Shown one piece after another: positions 31,285 to 58,789 of a DNA stretch of 64,000 nt. Each line of letters opens with the position of its first letter. The stretch's first letter is position 1. The notes under the pieces are model-generated. The model did no database searches. It saw only the letters and a program-made list of their open reading frames with translations, and was not told where the DNA came from. The position numbers and the translations under genes are program-made. This DNA comes from an uncultured Alphaproteobacteria bacterium (GTDB taxonomy: Bacteria > Pseudomonadota > Alphaproteobacteria > RF32 > CAG-239), in contig CALXPT010000002.1 of assembly GCA_944390355.1 (NCBI GenBank), positions 62,001 through 126,000 of the forward strand. Direction: 5' to 3'.

Positions 31285-31325
31285 AATTCACTCAGCATCA
31301 ATTTCTGAGGCTGAGTGATTAATAT
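31285..31325. terminator. Terminator between convergent genes
   Basis: TCACTCAGC, loop, GCTGAGTGA between the phosphatase stop and the stop of the minus-strand secreted protein. Confidence 0.75.
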
Positions 31326-32224
31326 TAAAATTCCAGCACAGGCCAGACACGGAGTTCAGCTCCATCGATTTTTCCTGTATAACTATCTTGATATGCATAT
31401 TCATTCTGAAAATGATTGAAAAGAGCATACCAAACACTATTTTCTTGATAATAAGCAGAATTATCCCTATTATAATGATTACTTTCGGTGGATGACCAAA
31501 GCAAAATATTATCCTCAGTTGGAATAGTTGTGCCACCAAGATGTTTTAAAACAGAATCAACAGTTTCAATATTTTTGTATAAAGAATATAATACCCCTAA
31601 AGCAGGTAAGCACCAATCACCTCGCTTAGTTCCTTTAGTAGCGTATGCATTAACAGCTCTTGCTGCCGGAAAATCAACATCTTCTAGATTAATAGAGCCA
31701 TAATCTAATCCGATAGATGTTTTTAAATCAGCATATTTTAAAATTATTCTAGTGTTTTGACAGCTTTCAAAATCATTTCTGGCATCTGTAGTACTTTCTC
31801 TATTTGTTAATTCGGGTAAATCTCTTCCGGCAAAGGCCCAACTAAAGGTCCCCATAGGATTAAGAGCCAGAACTTGTCCGTGTCCATCAGAGGTTTTATA
31901 AATAACAACACCAATAGGAGTCTTTCCGTTAACATTAGTTGAGGAGCAAGTTTTATCTGAAAAATAAATATCTCCAATATTACAATTAGTAGAGCCTTGT
32001 TCCGTATCTTCAATAATTTTTTCCAGCTCTTCAATTTTATCATTTAAGTCGCTTGCGGTGCAGTTCCAAGCGTTTCCGAATGGACATTTGATACCACCTC
32101 TACAAGAGGAAGTACTTTCAAACCCCAATGAAGAACAACTTGGTGTCTGGATGCAGGCAGCCTCAGCTGTTCCACTCATCGTAAAAGCCACCAAAGCTGA
32201 TGTTAAAAATAAGTATTTTTTCAT
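31325..32224 (-). CDS. Secreted protein with DUF1566/C-type-lectin-like C-terminus (copy 1)
   Basis: 299 residues from the ATG at 32224 (AAGGAG upstream). Signal peptide of about 20 residues ending AEA; then a Cys-containing motif ACIQTPSCSSLGF...CPFGNAW shared with the protein at 46246; a short coiled coil (LNDKIEELEKIIED); and a C-terminal domain with IGDIYFSDKTCSS, GDWCLPALGVLYSLYK, LLWSSTES and the ending RVWPVLEF. That tail is the DUF1566/Fibrobacter-paralogous type, a C-type-lectin-like fold. It follows the Cys-rich gene by 34 bases in the same operon. The pair is repeated in opposite orientation at 45-47 kb. Likely exported surface protein; function unknown. Confidence 0.75.
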   Translation of the reverse strand: MKKYLFLTSALVAFTMSGTAEAACIQTPSCSSLGFESTSSCRGGIKCPFGNAWNCTASDLNDKIEELEKIIEDTEQGSTNCNIGDIYFSDKTCSSTNVNGKTPIGVVIYKTSDGHGQVLALNPMGTFSWAFAGRDLPELTNRESTTDARNDFESCQNTRIILKYADLKTSIGLDYGSINLEDVDFPAARAVNAYATKGTKRGDWCLPALGVLYSLYKNIETVDSVLKHLGGTTIPTEDNILLWSSTESNHYNRDNSAYYQENSVWYALFNHFQNEYAYQDSYTGKIDGAELRVWPVLEF

Positions 32225-32258
32225 TTTCTTTCTCCTTGATAATAATTTCAGTTCTAAG

Positions 32259-33134
32259 TTATTGTTCAAAAGCACAATAGTCGCACCAGTCGGTGCAACC
32301 AGACTTACAGCCGGTTACAATGTATAAATTCGAGCATTCTTCAAACGTGCAGACCGAACACGGCGGACATTCACTCTCCGTTCCCAAGTTCGGGCAGGGG
32401 GTGCATTCCGAACACAAAATTTTATCACCTGTTTGACAAGTGGGAGTCCCGTCTTTACACCCTAAATTGCCGCAATCAATAAAGCCGGAACAGTCTTTCT
32501 CTTTGATTTTGTATTTTTCCTTGATTTTGAGGCCGCCTTCGTCGCATTCTCGACAAGGTTCACCGTCCGCTTCATAACCATCTGGAATGGAACCAAGAGT
32601 GTACTTATATTCCGCAGGACAAATAGGGGTACAACAATCTTGATACAAACCATTGCCACAGACCTCTCCGACGCCTTTCAACGGAGCTTCGCAAGTTTTG
32701 TAATCACTCGGACAATCCGGAATACATTCGGCAAAATATTTGTTATTCAGCGGACAATATTTGTTGCCTTTATAGCCGCTTGGGCAAGAGGTTTTGTCAT
32801 AGCCCATTTTGATACAGCTGTCGGCATCACCACCCCCTGGGGGAATAACTTCCGGCGTGCCGCCTTCCAAATCGGTGCCGACAAAGTCTGCCCCGCCGCA
32901 GTCTTCGGTATCGGTTATCCAGCATACCTGCGCAACCTTGAGTTCTCTTGCCTTAAAACTTGGCGAAGACAAATGTCGAGCCATGAGGTGTGAAGTGTGT
33001 GATGTGTGTAATTTAGCATAGCTCGGAACCGGAGGTGCTTTTAGATTAAAATTAATTGATGCTTGAGCTTGATCAGATACACAAGCCAAACTTAATGCTG
33101 TTGCACACAGCAAAAGGCAACCCTTTTTCATCAT
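32259..33134 (-). CDS. Secreted cysteine-rich protein, copy 1
   Basis: 291 residues. Start at the ATGATG at 33134 behind GAGGTG. Signal peptide about 1-27 (LLLCATALSLACVSDQAQA), then a conserved linker (NLKAPPVPSYAKLHTSHTSH), CWITDTEDCGGADF, a Pro/Gly turn (PEVIPPGGGD) and a long Cys-rich region with roughly one Cys per nine residues, ending in CTFEECSNLYIVTGCKSGC. By eye about 25 differences from copy 2 at 45263. The open frame runs 41 codons further upstream through the shared promoter cassette, but the GAGGTG and signal peptide fix the start. I recognise no named family; disulphide-rich export to the periplasm or surface is inferred. Confidence 0.8.
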   Translation of the reverse strand: MMKKGCLLLCATALSLACVSDQAQASINFNLKAPPVPSYAKLHTSHTSHLMARHLSSPSFKARELKVAQVCWITDTEDCGGADFVGTDLEGGTPEVIPPGGGDADSCIKMGYDKTSCPSGYKGNKYCPLNNKYFAECIPDCPSDYKTCEAPLKGVGEVCGNGLYQDCCTPICPAEYKYTLGSIPDGYEADGEPCRECDEGGLKIKEKYKIKEKDCSGFIDCGNLGCKDGTPTCQTGDKILCSECTPCPNLGTESECPPCSVCTFEECSNLYIVTGCKSGCTDWCDYCAFEQ

Positions 33135-33258
33135 AATACACCTCGCATAAGTTCTAATTACATTTGTCTCCACGACTCGTATTATATCATAAGAAAGCAA
33201 TCCTTTCAATAGAAATTTTCGAGGTTTTCCGCGGGTTTGGGCGAATGCTTTTTGCATA
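33135..33258 (-). repeat. Promoter cassette repeat, copy 1
   Basis: About 125 bases nearly identical to 45138-45262 and 53878-54000. It begins at the T-tract of the autotransporter terminator (TATGCAAAA...TTCGCCC), continues through CCGCGGAAAACCTCG, and holds TTGAAA (33204-33209), a 17-base spacer, TATAAT (33181-33186) and the ribosome site GAGGTG. Confidence 0.85.
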
Positions 33259-33290
33259 AAAAACTCGTTCTAAAAAACAAGAACGAGCTA
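33256..33290 (-). terminator. Terminator of the giant autotransporter gene
   Basis: On the minus strand CTCGTTCT, loop, AGAACGAG followed by six T. The promoter cassette of the cysteine-rich gene starts in this T run. Confidence 0.82.
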
Positions 33291-45108: not shown

Positions 45109-45139
45109 GAGCTCCGAGAACGGAGCTCAATTTTTTTTT
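45109..45139 (+). terminator. Terminator of the VanX-like gene
   Basis: GAGCTCCG AGAA CGGAGCTC then AATTTTTTTTT. The cassette repeat starts in the T run. Confidence 0.9.
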
Positions 45140-45262
45140 ATGCAAAACACTTCGCCCAAAGCCGCGGAAAACCTCGAAAATTTCTATTGAAAGGAATTTT
45201 CTTTTGTGTTATAATACGAGTCGTGAAGACAAATGTAATTAGAACTTTATGCGAGGTGTATT
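45138..45262 (+). repeat. Promoter cassette repeat, copy 2
   Basis: Same roughly 125-base cassette as at 33135-33258 and 53878-54000, here on the plus strand. TTGAAA at 45187-45192, 17-base spacer, TATAAT at 45210-45215, ribosome site GAGGTG just before ATGATG. The open frame that crosses it (encoding SRGKPRKFLLKG in all copies) reflects DNA identity and is probably not translated. Confidence 0.87.
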
Positions 45263-46138
45263 ATGATGAAAAAGGGTTGCCTTTTGCTGTGTGCAACAGC
45301 ATTAAGCTTGGCTTGGTTGGATAATCAAGCTCAAGCATCAATTGGTTTTAATCTGAAAGCACCTCCGGTTCCGAGCTATGCTAAATTACACACATCACAC
45401 ACTTCACACCTCATGGCTCGACATTTGTCTTCGCCAAGTTTTAAGGCAAGAGAACTCAAGGTTGCGCAGGTATGCTGGATAACCGATACCGAAGACTGCG
45501 GCGGGGCAGACTTTGTCGGCACCGATTTGGAAGGCGGCACGCCGGAAGTTATTCCCCCAGGGGGTGGTGATGCCGACAGCTGTATCAAAATGGGCTATGA
45601 CAAAACCTCTTGCCCAAGCGGTTATAAGCCGAATAAATATTGTCCGCTGAATAACAAATATTTTGCCGAATGTATACCGGACTGCCCGAGTAATTACGTA
45701 ACTTGCGAAGCTCCGTTAAAAGGCGTCGGAACAGTTTGCGGCAATGGTTTATACAAAGACTGTTGTACGCCGACTTGTCCGGCAGAATACAAATACACAC
45801 TTGGTTCAATCCCTGATGGGTATGAAGCGGATGGCGAACCTTGTGAGGAATGCGACGAAGGCGGCCTCAAAATCAAGGAAAAATACAAAATCAAAGAGAA
45901 AGACTGTACGGGATTTTTTGACTGCGGCGATATGGGGTGCAAAGCAGGCACACCGACTTGTCGAACAGGTAATACAACCTTGTGTTCGGAATGTGAGCCC
46001 TGCCCGAACTTAGGCACGGAGAGCGAATGTCCGCCGTGTTCGGTCTGCACTTATGAGGAATGCTCGAGTTTATATATTGTAACCGGTTGCGCAACCGGCT
46101 GCACCGACTGGTGCGACTATTGCGCTTTTGAACAATAG
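45263..46138 (+). CDS. Secreted cysteine-rich protein, copy 2
   Basis: 291 residues, about 29 cysteines. Signal peptide about 1-27 (LLLCATALSLAWLDNQAQA), the conserved NLKAPPVPSYAKLHTSHTSH linker, CWITDTEDCGGADF, PEVIPPGGGD, and a Cys-rich body with CPLNNKYFAECIPDCPS, KIKEKYKIKEKDC and the ending CTYEECSSLYIVTGCATGC. A 213-base stretch (45376-45588) encodes exactly the same residues in the unused antisense frame as copy 1, showing nearly identical DNA. It leads a two-gene operon with the lectin-like protein at 46246. Oriented opposite to copies 1 and 3. Confidence 0.82.
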   Translation: MMKKGCLLLCATALSLAWLDNQAQASIGFNLKAPPVPSYAKLHTSHTSHLMARHLSSPSFKARELKVAQVCWITDTEDCGGADFVGTDLEGGTPEVIPPGGGDADSCIKMGYDKTSCPSGYKPNKYCPLNNKYFAECIPDCPSNYVTCEAPLKGVGTVCGNGLYKDCCTPTCPAEYKYTLGSIPDGYEADGEPCEECDEGGLKIKEKYKIKEKDCTGFFDCGDMGCKAGTPTCRTGNTTLCSECEPCPNLGTESECPPCSVCTYEECSSLYIVTGCATGCTDWCDYCAFEQ

Positions 46139-46245: not shown

Positions 46246-47031
46246 ATGAGAAAGTTTTTATTATATTCATCAGCTTTGATGGTGAGCGGTTTGTTAAGTG
46301 GTGCGGCTGAGGCGGCCTGTATCCAAACCCCGACTTGTTCATCTTTGGGGTATTCATCCACGACCGCTTGTGAAGGTGGCTTAAAATGTCCTTTTGGAGA
46401 AGCTTGGTTTTGCAATGTCGGCGGTAATGGCAGTAATAACGATGATAGCAATACGAATAATAGCGGTTGTCAAATCGGAGATATATTATATTCTGACAAG
46501 AGTTGCTCTTCAAATGTGATTTCGAGTAAAACCCCGATTGCTGTCATTTTTGACACTAGAAATAGATTGGCAGTTGCTTTGAAAACGGCAAAAAAAGTAT
46601 GGGTAGAAGGAGAGACAGGTACATCTTTTGATATACCAGAGCTATCAAATTTCATGTCACCTTCTTCAGCAATAGTAGATTGGTTTGGTAAAAATAACAC
46701 TCGTTACGGGATAGCCGAATGCCAAACAAAAGGTATAAATTGTCCGGCTTTTGAATATGTAAACAGTTATAAAACTGAGGGCACGCAAGCCGGAGACTGG
46801 TACTTGCCTGCATTAGGAGAATTAAATACTGTATATGCCAGTAAGGGGATTCTAGACGCAACATTGGGTAAAATAGGCGGAGAGAAATTTTCAGAAGATT
46901 GGCAATGGTCTTCAACGGAAGGAACCAAAGTAGATACTTGGTCACTAAGTTTTGCTAACGGAAATCCAAGTTTAGGTTACAAAGCCAATAGCAACAATTC
47001 TTTTTACGTCCGTCCTATTCTAGCGTTCTAA
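46246..47031 (+). CDS. Secreted protein with DUF1566/C-type-lectin-like C-terminus (copy 2)
   Basis: 261 residues from the ATG at 46246 (AGGAGAAATAAA upstream). Signal peptide ending AEA near residue 22, then ACIQTPTCSSLGYSSTTACEGG...CPFGEAW as in copy 1, an Asn/Ser/Gly linker (GGNGSNNDDSNTNN), and the lectin-like domain: IGDILYSDKSCSS, KTPIAVIFD, GDWYLPALGELNTVY, WQWSSTEG and a terminal YVRPILAF. The segment between WSSTE and YVRP (TWSLSFANGNPSLGYKAN) resembles variable regions of diversity-generating retroelement targets. Much less similar to copy 1 than the paired cysteine-rich genes are to each other. Confidence 0.77.
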   Translation: MRKFLLYSSALMVSGLLSGAAEAACIQTPTCSSLGYSSTTACEGGLKCPFGEAWFCNVGGNGSNNDDSNTNNSGCQIGDILYSDKSCSSNVISSKTPIAVIFDTRNRLAVALKTAKKVWVEGETGTSFDIPELSNFMSPSSAIVDWFGKNNTRYGIAECQTKGINCPAFEYVNSYKTEGTQAGDWYLPALGELNTVYASKGILDATLGKIGGEKFSEDWQWSSTEGTKVDTWSLSFANGNPSLGYKANSNNSFYVRPILAF

Positions 47032-52110: not shown

Positions 52111-53877
52111 CTATAAACATAAAGTTTGGTAAGAAGCAGAAGGGCATTTATCTTGTTGCAAAAGATTATTTAATTTTTGCTCACACGATTCTTTTGTAGG
52201 ATGCTCACTCCGAATTTCGGCGCAATTTTTTCTATATAAAGAACTACCATTGGAGTAAACCAGAGTTCGAGTATAGTTTAAAATATAAGTACTATAATAC
52301 ACTTCACAATTACCATCAGCCTCTTCATACAATGGAGTATAACAAGGAACGCACTTAGAATTCTTCCAAATATAATTGGTCTCACAAATACATTTAGCGT
52401 ATTTATCATCACAAGCAATTCCATCTCCTCCAGCATACCCTATACCGGTACAAGAGTATTTGTAAGTAAGAGGACAAGAACAAGTTCCATTGTCCCAAGA
52501 AGAAACACCAGAACATTCACATTTTGTGTACTTCCCTTCACAAGCAGTTCCAATACCACCAATTTGATTTGAACCAGTACAAGTGTATTTATAACTGCTA
52601 GAGCATATACATGTTTTATTATAAGAATCCCAACTATAACCATAGCCAGATTGGCATCCAGATTTATAATATTTTCCTGAACATTCTTCAAATGTACAAG
52701 TAAATGGCCATGGACAAGATGTTAAAGTCCCTTTATTGGCGCATTTTTCTTCTGTGCATGTTTGAGTATAAGAATCCCAATCATAACCAGATTGGCATCC
52801 GGATTTATAATATTTTCCCGAACATTCTTCAAATGTACAAGTAAATGGCCACGGACAAGAAGCTAATGTTCCTTTATTTGCACATGCCTTTTGACAACTT
52901 TGAGAAGAGCTATTCCATTCATATCCGCTTTTACAACCGGTACGGCAATATTTTCCAGAGCAATCTTCTTTGTCGCAGATTGCATTTGCGGGACAAGAGT
53001 TCAATGTACATTTATTTTGGCAAGCAGCAATACAACTTTGAGATGTTTCATCCCAAGAGTATCCATTAGCACAACCTGTGCGACAATATAGACCGGAGCA
53101 ATTTTCCTTGTCGCAGATTGCATTTTCGGGACATTCAATAAGGGTACAAGCATTAGGACAAGGAGGACAATCTTTACACAAAGTTTTATCACCAGCTAAG
53201 CACGTATCAGATCCTATTGCGCAATCACCGTTACAGTCCAAAAAACCGATACAAGAATTAGGAATGATTTTATATTTCCAGCCATCGCATGATTCGCAAG
53301 CCTCACCTTTTATATAACCTGAAGGAATATCGTTTTCGAAATAATCATACCCATCACATGTATCACATGTACATTCCATATATTTTCCGGGGCAGCATTC
53401 TTCACCAACGCCTGTATAATGCTCATCGCATGCCTTACAGCCATCAGGACAATCAGACAAACACTCGGCAAAATATTTATTATCTAACGGGCAAAACTTG
53501 CTCGGTGTATAATTCTCAGGGCAAGAGGTTTTATCATAGCCCATTTTGATACAGCTATCATCCCCGCCACCGCCCCCTGGGGGAATAATATCAGGTGTAC
53601 CTTGCGTTCCATCGGTGCCGACAAAATCCGCTCCGCCGCAATCTTCGGTATCCGTTATCCAGCACACCTGCGCAACCTTGATTTCTTGTCTCTCGCTAAA
53701 ACTTGGCGAAGACAAATGTCGAGCTATGAGGTGTGAAGTATGCGATGTGTGTAATTTAGCATAGCTCGGAACGGGAGGTGCTTTTAGATTAAAATTAATT
53801 GATGCCTGAACTTGATTATCCAAACAAGCCAAGCTTAATGCTGTAGCACACAGCAAAAGGCAATTTGCTTTCATCAT
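52111..53877 (-). CDS. Secreted cysteine-rich protein, copy 3 (expanded)
   Basis: 588 residues, twice the length of copies 1 and 2. Same start (ATGATG after GAGGTG), signal peptide (LLLCATALSLACLDNQVQA), linker, CWITDTEDCGGADF and CIKMGYDKTSC. It then diverges into tandem modules of about 45-47 residues: CxNxCTLxxCPxxAICDKExCSGxYCRTGC twice, CANKGTLxSCPWPFTCTFEECSGKYYKSGCQSGY twice, then two weaker CTGxxxxGGxGxAC units. The two middle modules are nearly identical DNA (52646-52744 and 52787-52885). The module is the end of copies 1 and 2 expanded (CTFEECS). No lectin-like partner follows. Export and disulphide bonding inferred; function unknown. Confidence 0.82.
   Translation of the reverse strand: MMKANCLLLCATALSLACLDNQVQASINFNLKAPPVPSYAKLHTSHTSHLIARHLSSPSFSERQEIKVAQVCWITDTEDCGGADFVGTDGTQGTPDIIPPGGGGGDDSCIKMGYDKTSCPENYTPSKFCPLDNKYFAECLSDCPDGCKACDEHYTGVGEECCPGKYMECTCDTCDGYDYFENDIPSGYIKGEACESCDGWKYKIIPNSCIGFLDCNGDCAIGSDTCLAGDKTLCKDCPPCPNACTLIECPENAICDKENCSGLYCRTGCANGYSWDETSQSCIAACQNKCTLNSCPANAICDKEDCSGKYCRTGCKSGYEWNSSSQSCQKACANKGTLASCPWPFTCTFEECSGKYYKSGCQSGYDWDSYTQTCTEEKCANKGTLTSCPWPFTCTFEECSGKYYKSGCQSGYGYSWDSYNKTCICSSSYKYTCTGSNQIGGIGTACEGKYTKCECSGVSSWDNGTCSCPLTYKYSCTGIGYAGGDGIACDDKYAKCICETNYIWKNSKCVPCYTPLYEEADGNCEVYYSTYILNYTRTLVYSNGSSLYRKNCAEIRSEHPTKESCEQKLNNLLQQDKCPSASYQTLCL
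52620..52890 (-). repeat. Tandem module duplication inside cysteine-rich gene copy 3
   Basis: Two units at a spacing of 141-147 bases with only scattered differences; each encodes CPWPFTCTFEECSGKYYKSG. Recent tandem duplication, length variation likely between strains. Confidence 0.8.
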
Positions 53878-54000
53878 AATACACCTCGTAAAAAGTTCTA
53901 ATTACATTTGTCTCCACGACTCGTATTATATCACAAAAGAAAATTACTTTCAATAGAAATTTTCGAGGTTTTCCGCGGCTTTGGGCAAACTCTTTACAAA
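53878..54000 (-). repeat. Promoter cassette repeat, copy 3
   Basis: Third copy of the cassette. On the minus strand: GTAAAGAGTTTGCCC, GCCGCGGAAAACCTCG, TTGAAA (53948-53953), 17-base spacer, TATAAT (53925-53930), GAGGTG. It again begins in the T run of the preceding gene's terminator. Confidence 0.86.
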
Positions 54001-54030
54001 AAAAACGTCTCCAAATAAGGAGACGTGAAA
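53996..54030 (-). terminator. Terminator of the Aas-like gene
   Basis: On the minus strand ACGTCTCC TTATTT GGAGACGT followed by a T run that joins the cassette repeat. Confidence 0.86.
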
Positions 54031-56482: not shown

Positions 56483-57742
56483 ATGAAAAAAGTTCTAATG
56501 ATAACGGCAATCGGAAGTGCACTAATGACCGCAGGTACGGCACATTCGGCAGGATTCCTGTTGCGAGAACAATCAGCGGCCGGCATGGGCAATGCCTTTG
56601 CGGGAGCAACGGCGGGAGCGGAAGACGGCTCCTATTCATTTTACAATCCGGCCGGAATCATCCGCCAATACGGAACGCAGGCGTCAGTGAATGCCACGGC
56701 GATAATAGGCGATGCTAAAGGATATAATGCAACCGGCAACCGCAAACATCAAAATCAAATGGATCATATCGTAGATAAAAAGGTTTTGCCATCAGTTGCC
56801 GTAACTCATGCGCTCAACTCAAGAGCCTCAATGGGGTTGTCATTGAGTGCGCCGTTTGGCTTGGTAACGGATTATTCACCGACATGGGTCGGAGCAAACC
56901 ATGGTACATTGTCGGAATTGTCGACTTATAACCTGACGCCGATGTTTGCCTATCGTGCAACTTGTAATTTAACTTTGGGTGCGGGACTGGTTGTGCAATA
57001 TATAGATGCCACGTTAAAGAGCGGCATCATGCAAAACATGACCGGAGGGCATCTGCCGAATGATATTGTGGCAAAGATGACCGGTAATGATACCAGTTTA
57101 GGCTATATTGTGGGCGGATTATATGAATTTTCGCCGCGAACAAGGGTAGGAGTATCTTATCGAAGCGAGGTAAAGCACAAACTCAAAGGAAAAATCAGGT
57201 TTAATCATCAAGTTCCGATGGCTGACATTGAGAATCAAAGCATAGATGCGAGTGTCAAAACGCCGGCATTGTTAACATTTGGAGCATATCACGATATCAC
57301 GCGCAAATGGTCGGTGATGGCGGAAGCGCAAAAAACCTATTGGTCATCATTTGATAATTTAATTATTAATGGGCACAAGTCTGGTGTATTGAGTTATACC
57401 GAGGAAAATTGGAAAGATGTATGGTTTTTTGCCTTAGGAACATCGTATAAGGTTAATAAGGACTTGAAGTTGCGCTTTGGTGTAGCCTACGATGTAACGC
57501 CGGTTAGCGATGCCTATCGCACGCCGCGCATTCCGGATTCGGACAGAACATGGTTTACAACCGGAGCCGAGTATAAATTAACGGACAAATTAAGCTTAAA
57601 TGCGGGATATGCGTACATCAGAGCCAAGAAGAACCGAGTTAATTTAGCGGGAACGGGCTATGATGCAGACAGAGGTCCGCTAACGGCGCAGTATAAAGGA
57701 AACATCCACTTATTCGCCGGAGGGCTAAATTATCGTTTTTAG
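56483..57742 (+). CDS. FadL/OmpP1/TodX-family outer-membrane porin
   Basis: 419 residues. Signal peptide to about residue 22, mature start AGFLLREQSAAGMGNAFAGA, the plug sequence of FadL-type channels; then YSFYNPAGI and a beta-barrel ending in Phe (GGLNYRF). Takes up long-chain fatty acids or other hydrophobic molecules across the outer membrane. SLSAPFGLVTDYSPTWVG is the usual S3 kink region. Likely needs the BAM complex for insertion. Divergent from the Aas-like gene. Confidence 0.93.
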   Translation: MKKVLMITAIGSALMTAGTAHSAGFLLREQSAAGMGNAFAGATAGAEDGSYSFYNPAGIIRQYGTQASVNATAIIGDAKGYNATGNRKHQNQMDHIVDKKVLPSVAVTHALNSRASMGLSLSAPFGLVTDYSPTWVGANHGTLSELSTYNLTPMFAYRATCNLTLGAGLVVQYIDATLKSGIMQNMTGGHLPNDIVAKMTGNDTSLGYIVGGLYEFSPRTRVGVSYRSEVKHKLKGKIRFNHQVPMADIENQSIDASVKTPALLTFGAYHDITRKWSVMAEAQKTYWSSFDNLIINGHKSGVLSYTEENWKDVWFFALGTSYKVNKDLKLRFGVAYDVTPVSDAYRTPRIPDSDRTWFTTGAEYKLTDKLSLNAGYAYIRAKKNRVNLAGTGYDADRGPLTAQYKGNIHLFAGGLNYRF

Positions 57743-57763
57743 CTAAGAAGCAAAAAGAATAAA

Positions 57764-57799
57764 AAATAGGGTTTATCGAGAGATAAGCTCTATTTTTTT
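57764..57799 (+). terminator. Terminator of the FadL-like gene
   Basis: AATAGGGTTTATC GAGA GATAAGCTCTATT followed by T run; the T run continues into TATGCAAAAGAGTTCGCC, like the start of the promoter cassettes. Confidence 0.75.
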
Positions 57800-57994
57800 A
57801 TGCAAAAGAGTTCGCCTATAATTATAATGAGAACTAAAATTGGCAAAACAAGACTTGAGGAAGATGATTGTTATTGGTCTTCATCTGAATATTCTTGGTC
57901 TTGGGTATGGAATCAGGATTTTGGTAATGGTAGTATGTACTTTAACGGAGAAAAAGCTAACAATATTTATTACGTCCTGGTTCTCACATTCTAA
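57800..57994 (+). pseudogene. Orphan fragment of a DUF1566/C-type-lectin-like tail
   Basis: An open frame of 64 codons. Its first bases (ATGCAAAAGAGTTCGCC) match the first 20 or so bases of the promoter cassettes, but the promoter, signal peptide and body are missing. The rest is the terminal part of a lectin-like protein: CYWSSSEYSWSWVWNQDFGNG, then NNIYYVLVLTF. It aligns with WQWSSTEG...YVRPILAF of the gene at 46246, with YVRP changed to YVLV and one residue fewer. The aromatic-rich, variable middle is typical of diversity-generating retroelement variable regions. Most likely a decayed or donor copy; translation unlikely. Confidence 0.65.
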
Positions 57995-58012
57995 TCTCAT
58001 TTCCTCCAAACA

Positions 58013-58062: not shown

Positions 58063-58710
58063 TCAAATATCGGCAATAATCTGTATGGAAATAATTTCAT
58101 CAGGGTCTGAGACAGCACCGTTAGCCCCATCGCCTTTTTTGATGTTGTCAACATATTCCATACCCGAGGTTACTTCGCCCCAAACGGTGTATTGTCCGTT
58201 AAGCCAATCGCAGTCGCCAAAACAAATAAAAAACTGACTGTCGGCAGAATCCGGCATCATCGCGCGCGCCATAGACACCGTGCCGCGCTTGTGCGGACGT
58301 TTATTAAATTCGGCTTTAAGCTTTTTACCGGAGCCTCCGGTACCCGTACCGTAAGGACAGCCGGTTTGTGCCATAAATCCGTCGATGACGCGGTGAAATT
58401 TCAACCCGTTATAAAAACCCGCACGAACCAATTCTTTAATGCGCTCAACATGGTTTGGCGCATCATCGGGAAACATCTCAATCACGACATCTCCGTCCTT
58501 AAGCTTGAGGAGTAGGGCATTTTCCGCATCTTTAACCTTATAGGAATGTTTTATTTTCTTAGAGCGGGCGGCACTCATTCCGAGTCTTTCGGTTTTGGCA
58601 TTTTCTAAAGACTTTGTCCCATGGTCTTTAATCGCCTGTGTATTGGATTTTCCAAGAACCAGATTTTCTTTTTTAGGCCTAGAACCCTCAGATTTTTTGA
58701 CAGCTTTCAT
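58063..58710 (-). CDS. Cyclophilin-type peptidyl-prolyl cis-trans isomerase
   Basis: 215 residues from the ATG at 58710 (GGGAGAG upstream). About 60 basic N-terminal residues without a signal peptide precede the cyclophilin domain: VIEMFPDDAPNHVERIKELVRAGFYNGLKFHRVIDGFMAQTG, GTGTGGSGKKLKAEFN, GTVSMAR, DSQFFICFGDCDWLNGQYTVWGEV. The active-site Arg (FHRV), Phe (GFMAQ) and Gln (SQFFI) are present. The basic N-terminal extension is unusual; an ATG near residue 45 could give a shorter form. Probably cytoplasmic, PpiB-like. Confidence 0.9.
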   Translation of the reverse strand: MKAVKKSEGSRPKKENLVLGKSNTQAIKDHGTKSLENAKTERLGMSAARSKKIKHSYKVKDAENALLLKLKDGDVVIEMFPDDAPNHVERIKELVRAGFYNGLKFHRVIDGFMAQTGCPYGTGTGGSGKKLKAEFNKRPHKRGTVSMARAMMPDSADSQFFICFGDCDWLNGQYTVWGEVTSGMEYVDNIKKGDGANGAVSDPDEIISIQIIADI

Positions 58711-58789
58711 TTTTTTCTCTCCCAAAAATACAACTGAATATAATATAAGGTTTAGAGATTAAAAATGCACTAATCAAGAAAAGAAAAAT

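Follow-up and report, generated by a model that had tools for sequence, protein, structure and literature searches.

The window, as we call the whole stretch of 64,000 nucleotides analysed here, belongs to the assembly of an uncultured alphaproteobacterium (G000). At 57.8 kb it has an ORF on the forward strand, 57800-57994, whose translation of 64 aa is MQKSSPIIIMRTKIGKTRLEEDDCYWSSSEYSWSWVWNQDFGNGSMYFNGEKANNIYYVLVLTF, followed by a stop codon. The first ~13 residues are not lectin-like and are mostly a 25-bp repeat (57792-57816) read through. The remainder is homologous to Lcl_C (DUF1566), and only the last ~50 residues of the protein encoded at 46.2-47.0 kb are represented. With Pfam, residues 21-61 corresponded to positions 78-116 of the 117 in the Lcl_C profile (E 4e-4), and the score of 21 bits, under the cut-off of 34.9 bits, falls short of a complete lectin-type domain. 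Comparison by blastp with the ORFs of the same genome gave nine paralogues (best E 2.5e-7), so the resemblance to lectin tails is beyond chance. Pfam and blastp thus agree with the preliminary description that this ORF carries only the end of the lectin family, with the correction that its first part is mostly cassette repeat.

The 25-bp repeat is the left end of a dispersed cassette. An intact cassette has the order left end, sigma70-like promoter region, Cys-rich gene A and gene B, the last often with a lectin-like tail (Table 1). There were 29 left ends in the genome as counted from left-end matches, and in addition two remnants, at 57.8 kb and at C13:31661 (L061), whose left end runs straight into a gene B tail. 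Four left ends lie within the window, at 45.1 and 57.8 kb on the forward strand and at 33.2 and 53.9 kb on the reverse strand. Most Lcl_C copies have the left-end motif about 1.5-2 kb upstream on the same strand, whereas at 57.8 kb it abuts the tail directly. Eleven sister copies in the genome match Lcl_C (PF07603) above the curated cut-off. No family containing gene A was found in Pfam or NCBIfam, and gene A as query found no relatives in the wider genome contigs, a set that possibly leaves out its own genome. The product of 52111-53877 gave no lectin domain. The cassettes stand behind unrelated genes, often straight after a terminator-like stretch, and have a sharp left edge and no right edge common to the copies examined. 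At C13:31661 the left end meets the last bases of the variable region at a short common TTCG.

Table 1. Coordinates of the features at 57.8 kb, of the other cassettes in the window and of the templates in the sister species G005.
Feature	Position	Strand	Remark
Left end of another cassette	33156..33276	-	
Gene A of the 33.2 kb cassette	32259..33257	-	
Gene B of the 33.2 kb cassette, divergent C-terminus (LRVWPVLEF)	31325..32275	-	
Intact cassette left end and sigma70-like promoter region (TTGAAA ... TATAAT)	45133..45262	+	Promoter read by eye
Gene A, 291 aa, Cys-rich, apparently secreted	45263..46138	+	Paralogues of other cassettes are 61-92% identical
Gene B, apparently secreted, Lcl_C lectin-like	46246..47031	+	Start taken as the ATG after AGGAGA, picked by eye
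Variable-region homologue at 46.9 kb, no significant adenine bias	46906..47031	+	
Left end of another cassette	53900..54004	-	
Gene A fused to Cys-rich repeats, 588 aa	52111..53877	-	Cassette at 53.9 kb
Upstream neighbour, FadL/OmpP1-like outer-membrane protein	56483..57742	+	Named from sequence character alone
Synteny breakpoint against G005	57743..58010		Cassette sequence at the joint in both genomes
Cassette left-end sequence (TTTTTTTATGCAAAAGAGTTCGCC), contains the ATG of the ORF (57800)	57792..57816	+	Exact match; 0.13 expected with <=3 mismatches
Junction left by the deletion, ~16 bp, where the cassette promoter, gene A and the greater part of gene B are absent	57817..57832	+	By comparison with intact cassettes
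Homologue of the last ~53 codons of gene B (Lcl_C), decayed, no significant DGR mutation pattern	57833..57994	+	
Downstream neighbour, peptidyl-prolyl isomerase-like	58063..58725	-	Named from sequence character alone
TR1	from L109:8331		G005, between Avd and reverse transcriptase
TR2	from L109:8605		G005, between Avd and reverse transcriptase

As it lacks the promoter, the Cys-rich gene A and the greater part of gene B, the piece at 57.8 kb is, judged from its sequence, no gene but the remnant of an internal deletion.

The preliminary description had compared this tail with targets of diversity-generating retroelements (DGRs), had noted that the window holds no reverse transcriptase, and had proposed that such a system might act from elsewhere in the genome. 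A search of the whole 1.71-Mb assembly, window included, gave no RVT_1 match at E <= 10, which extends the absence from the window to the assembly. The tails of this genome have a fixed framework with T- or C-ending codons at the variable places, and a template was predicted from them as the unchanged framework with AAY at the variable codons; the prediction was written before any template had been seen, though read from the tails. As query against its own genome it retrieved tails (best 86%) and short weak matches, and no template. The template region of G005 as query likewise returned tails only. Neither the reverse transcriptase nor the template that the proposal calls for was therefore found in the assembly, an outcome named beforehand as half of what would speak against it.

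Both were identified in G005, a sister species and the closest relative, in which two templates are flanked by an Avd-like ORF on one side and a reverse transcriptase on the other. The predicted template matched them at 94% (TR1) and 90% (the second stretch), and both stretches are non-coding. The reverse transcriptase of G005 (RVT_1, E 1.6e-17), in which the motifs LPIGNLTSQ and YVDD are visible, is of DGR type by its sequence. The reverse-transcriptase profile of the genus, for an enzyme that is absent from the assembly of the window, had chain 8ub7_A as its best solved match (E 1.6e-35, next best 2e-8); this chain, labelled 'Reverse transcriptase', we take to be the DGR enzyme of Bordetella phage BPP-1 (bRT). 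The Avd protein of G005 scored 58.6 bits with bAvd PF22296, above the 40-bit cut-off, and 53.3 bits with NCBIfam DivGenRetAVD, below the 80-bit cut-off. Relatives of the reverse transcriptase (loci L183-L242) are common in uncultured gut Alphaproteobacteria, for example Azospirillum sp. CAG:239 (60%), and relatives of the G005 enzyme also occur in Legionella.

As templates of its own were missing, each tail of the window's genome was scored against the better-matching of the two G005 templates. Pooled over 16 tails, mismatches were present at 296 of 656 template adenines and at 80 of 1142 other bases. Taken singly, 14 of the 16 had Fisher p < 1e-3, the others being C6:76729 (p = 0.003) and C19:3731 (p = 0.06); the tails are mutually related, and these p values serve as a description of the pattern, not as tests independent of one another. 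The tails of G005 itself, pooled, had mismatches at 334/817 template adenines against 70/1443 elsewhere. At least 14 sister tails in the genome of the window, which differ from the template almost only at adenines, can accordingly be named DGR targets by their mutation pattern. Because of these adenine-patterned tails, the DGR machinery would once have been active in this lineage. C20:25672 and C6:76729 each have nine non-adenine differences from a TR1-like template, of which the first six, all that were displayed, are identical. The differences common to the two suggest a third template type.

The same pattern was not found in the two tails for which it had been proposed. The stretch at 46.9 kb reads WSSTEG..TWSLSFANGNPS..YVRPILAF, as had been reported, and matches Lcl_C with E 1e-6 (29.5 bits, below the cut-off of 34.9). 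Its mismatches to the template, at 19 of 41 adenines and 28 of 71 other bases (p = 0.30), are not concentrated at adenines. At 57.8 kb they number 18/40 and 20/68 (p = 0.08), so the adenine bias is not significant, and the small number of 40 template adenines compared leaves room for a weak old bias. The likeness to DGR targets thus holds for the family, with its at least 14 adenine-biased tails and the machinery of G005, and fails for these two copies. The 57.8 kb tail also shows decay. Several framework codons have synonymous changes, its YVRP end has lost one codon and changed P to L, and several variable places have purine-ending codons (TGG, GGA, AAA), which are impossible from an AAY template, in a codon comparison that was ungapped and is shifted around the lost codon in its last third. 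From the synonymous changes, the purine-ending codons and the lost codon it appears that this copy drifted before it was truncated.

The fragment lies at a breakpoint of synteny with G005. Left of 57741 the window is collinear with contig C5 of G005, where the outer-membrane gene, a full cassette and RecG are present, and right of 58011 it is collinear with contig C2, where a cassette gene B is followed by the peptidyl-prolyl isomerase. The full cassette that G005 has after the same outer-membrane gene ends in an adenine-biased tail (C5:58582, p = 3.5e-7). Similarly, the right flank that matches the 46.9 kb cassette accompanies in G005 a strongly adenine-biased tail (C5:100833, p = 1.2e-7). 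RecG is next to a cassette in G005 and follows a different cassette in the genome of the window. The position of cassettes at breakpoints suggests recombination between cassette copies. As a separate observation, the 52111-54004 cassette also coincides with a breakpoint of synteny against G005.

We consider it highly probable that the 57.8 kb fragment is a dead cassette remnant made by internal deletion, in a family of DGR targets from which this copy and the 46.9 kb copy have dropped out. In the sister tails, by analogy with known DGRs, reverse transcriptase and Avd would copy the template repeat with errors at adenines, and the mutated copy would be written into the 3' end of gene B, which would give new lectin surfaces. 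The copies at 57.8 and 46.9 kb would have left this rewriting cycle and drifted as ordinary paralogues. The cassette at 57.8 kb would afterwards have lost its middle, so that the final ~53 codons of gene B came to follow directly on 25 bp of the left end, at a site where cassettes may have taken part in chromosomal rearrangement. This order of events is the one that the decay of the tail favours, and the fragment is presumably not expressed.

Compatible with a dead remnant at 57.8 kb, and with a chance that we put somewhat below even, the DGR core might exist in the organism and be absent from the assembly, with the sister tails still being rewritten. G000 consists of 42 contigs, and cassette repeats break assemblies, so an unassembled core is possible. 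Four own tails differ from the G005 templates at just one non-adenine position each. Against a locally inferred template four have none, namely C13:38796, C1:59565 and C3:16410 (set of 13) and C13:5894 (set of two); the majority sequence of the own tails served as this template, so the comparison is partly circular, and for C13:5894 the template follows that very sequence. Framework identity to the local template was dropped as the main argument for recent activity, because the template is the majority of those same tails. Both comparisons point to recent rewriting, the second weakly. Against an unassembled core, contig C10 is collinear with the G005 DGR locus on both sides and unbroken across the core site, passing from a gene B tail into sequence that in G005 is placed after the reverse transcriptase, and the completeness of the assembly is listed as 100%, with which a missing locus would still be compatible. 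The DGR core of the genus-mates and named relatives that were compared has neighbours different from those in G005, with one partial match in L195. Since the core flanks are not common to these relatives, absence at the G005 site is no proof of loss; a settled deletion of the core in G000 was dropped on this ground, as insertion in G005 is possible.

That the fragment has acquired a new role as a short expressed gene is very unlikely, even with a reading frame open across 64 codons, because its start codon belongs to the cassette end repeat, the cassette promoter is deleted and no signal peptide is encoded. The ATG at 57800 is probably not a real start, since a T-run with no visible ribosome site precedes it and it lies upstream of the position of the cassette promoter. 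We find it scarcely credible that a DGR located elsewhere in the genome still acts on the tail as a live target. It is homologous to the target family, but its adenine bias is not significant, its framework has synonymous changes and its YVRP end is altered; the fragment lacks cassette promoter, signal peptide and complete lectin domain, and neither reverse transcriptase nor template is in the assembly. In other bacterial antigen-variation systems promoterless partial copies act as donors, and the tails of this family are related, yet the suggestion that the piece is a silent donor for gene conversion into full-length copies is most improbable: the longest exact words that it shares with the other own-genome tails examined are 7-12 nt, where those tails share 15-34 nt (median 20) with one another, its closest DNA matches have 73-75% identity across 60-106 bp, and the variation of the family is accounted for by adenine mutagenesis.

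Tentatively, and with somewhat less than even confidence, we speculate that this clade of gut Alphaproteobacteria has a multi-template DGR, with 2-7 tandem templates between Avd and reverse transcriptase, that feeds dispersed lectin cassettes. The species of the window would have kept the repertoire and lost the machine, and remnants such as that at 57.8 kb would be by-products of cassette turnover. Tandem arrays of 2-7 template-like units, mostly with a spacing of ~245-300 bp, were observed at L112:9065-11018 (G001), L113 (G002), L109 (G005), L116 (G008), L193, L195 and L198. They lie between Avd and reverse transcriptase in G005, G001 and G002; in L193, L195 and L198 the reverse transcriptase is downstream of them. 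In G008 the array is beside Avd and the reverse transcriptase is on another contig. The seven templates of the G001 array differ from one another. No description of arrays of up to seven tandem templates was found in the open-access literature searched.

In Treponema denticola, DGRs serve several remote target genes per genome, and there are isolates that lack reverse transcriptase and template but retain target genes (PMC4891356). The genome of the window is similar in both respects, but it belongs to another lineage, one related to uncultured gut Alphaproteobacteria. Its ~29 dispersed cassettes include at least 14 targets with the DGR pattern, and its genus-mates have tandem template arrays. 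The DGR of Stenotrophomonas sp. SKA14 has two templates, six variable regions and 5 target ORFs with DUF1566 domains (PMC6642488). Multiple templates and DUF1566 targets are common to both, whereas here up to seven templates stand in tandem in a genus-mate and the machinery is absent from the assembly of the window.

The 57.8 kb fragment itself is of little weight; of more interest is the genome to which it led, where at least 14 lectin tails have the DGR pattern and a reverse transcriptase was not detected. With the pair G000 and G005 it becomes possible to ask for how long a diversified repertoire remains fresh after rewriting has stopped, and the tandem arrays of the genus-mates would allow testing whether a single reverse transcriptase serves several templates.

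The domain is also known from solved structures. A sequence-profile search gave the C-terminal domain of Legionella pneumophila Lcl (PDB 8q4e) and the Bacteroides ovatus fimbrial protein 4eps, with E 3e-4 each. A sister gene B protein was modelled with AlphaFold at modest confidence (mean pLDDT 60), and in Foldseek the model matched 4eps with E 5e-4 and 8q4e weakly (E 0.12). It means that the C-terminal domain of 4eps is the same by both sequence profile and fold, and that of Lcl by sequence profile and, weakly, by fold; the fold model is that of the sister protein, and in comparison with these structures the 57.8 kb piece retains only the last third of the domain.
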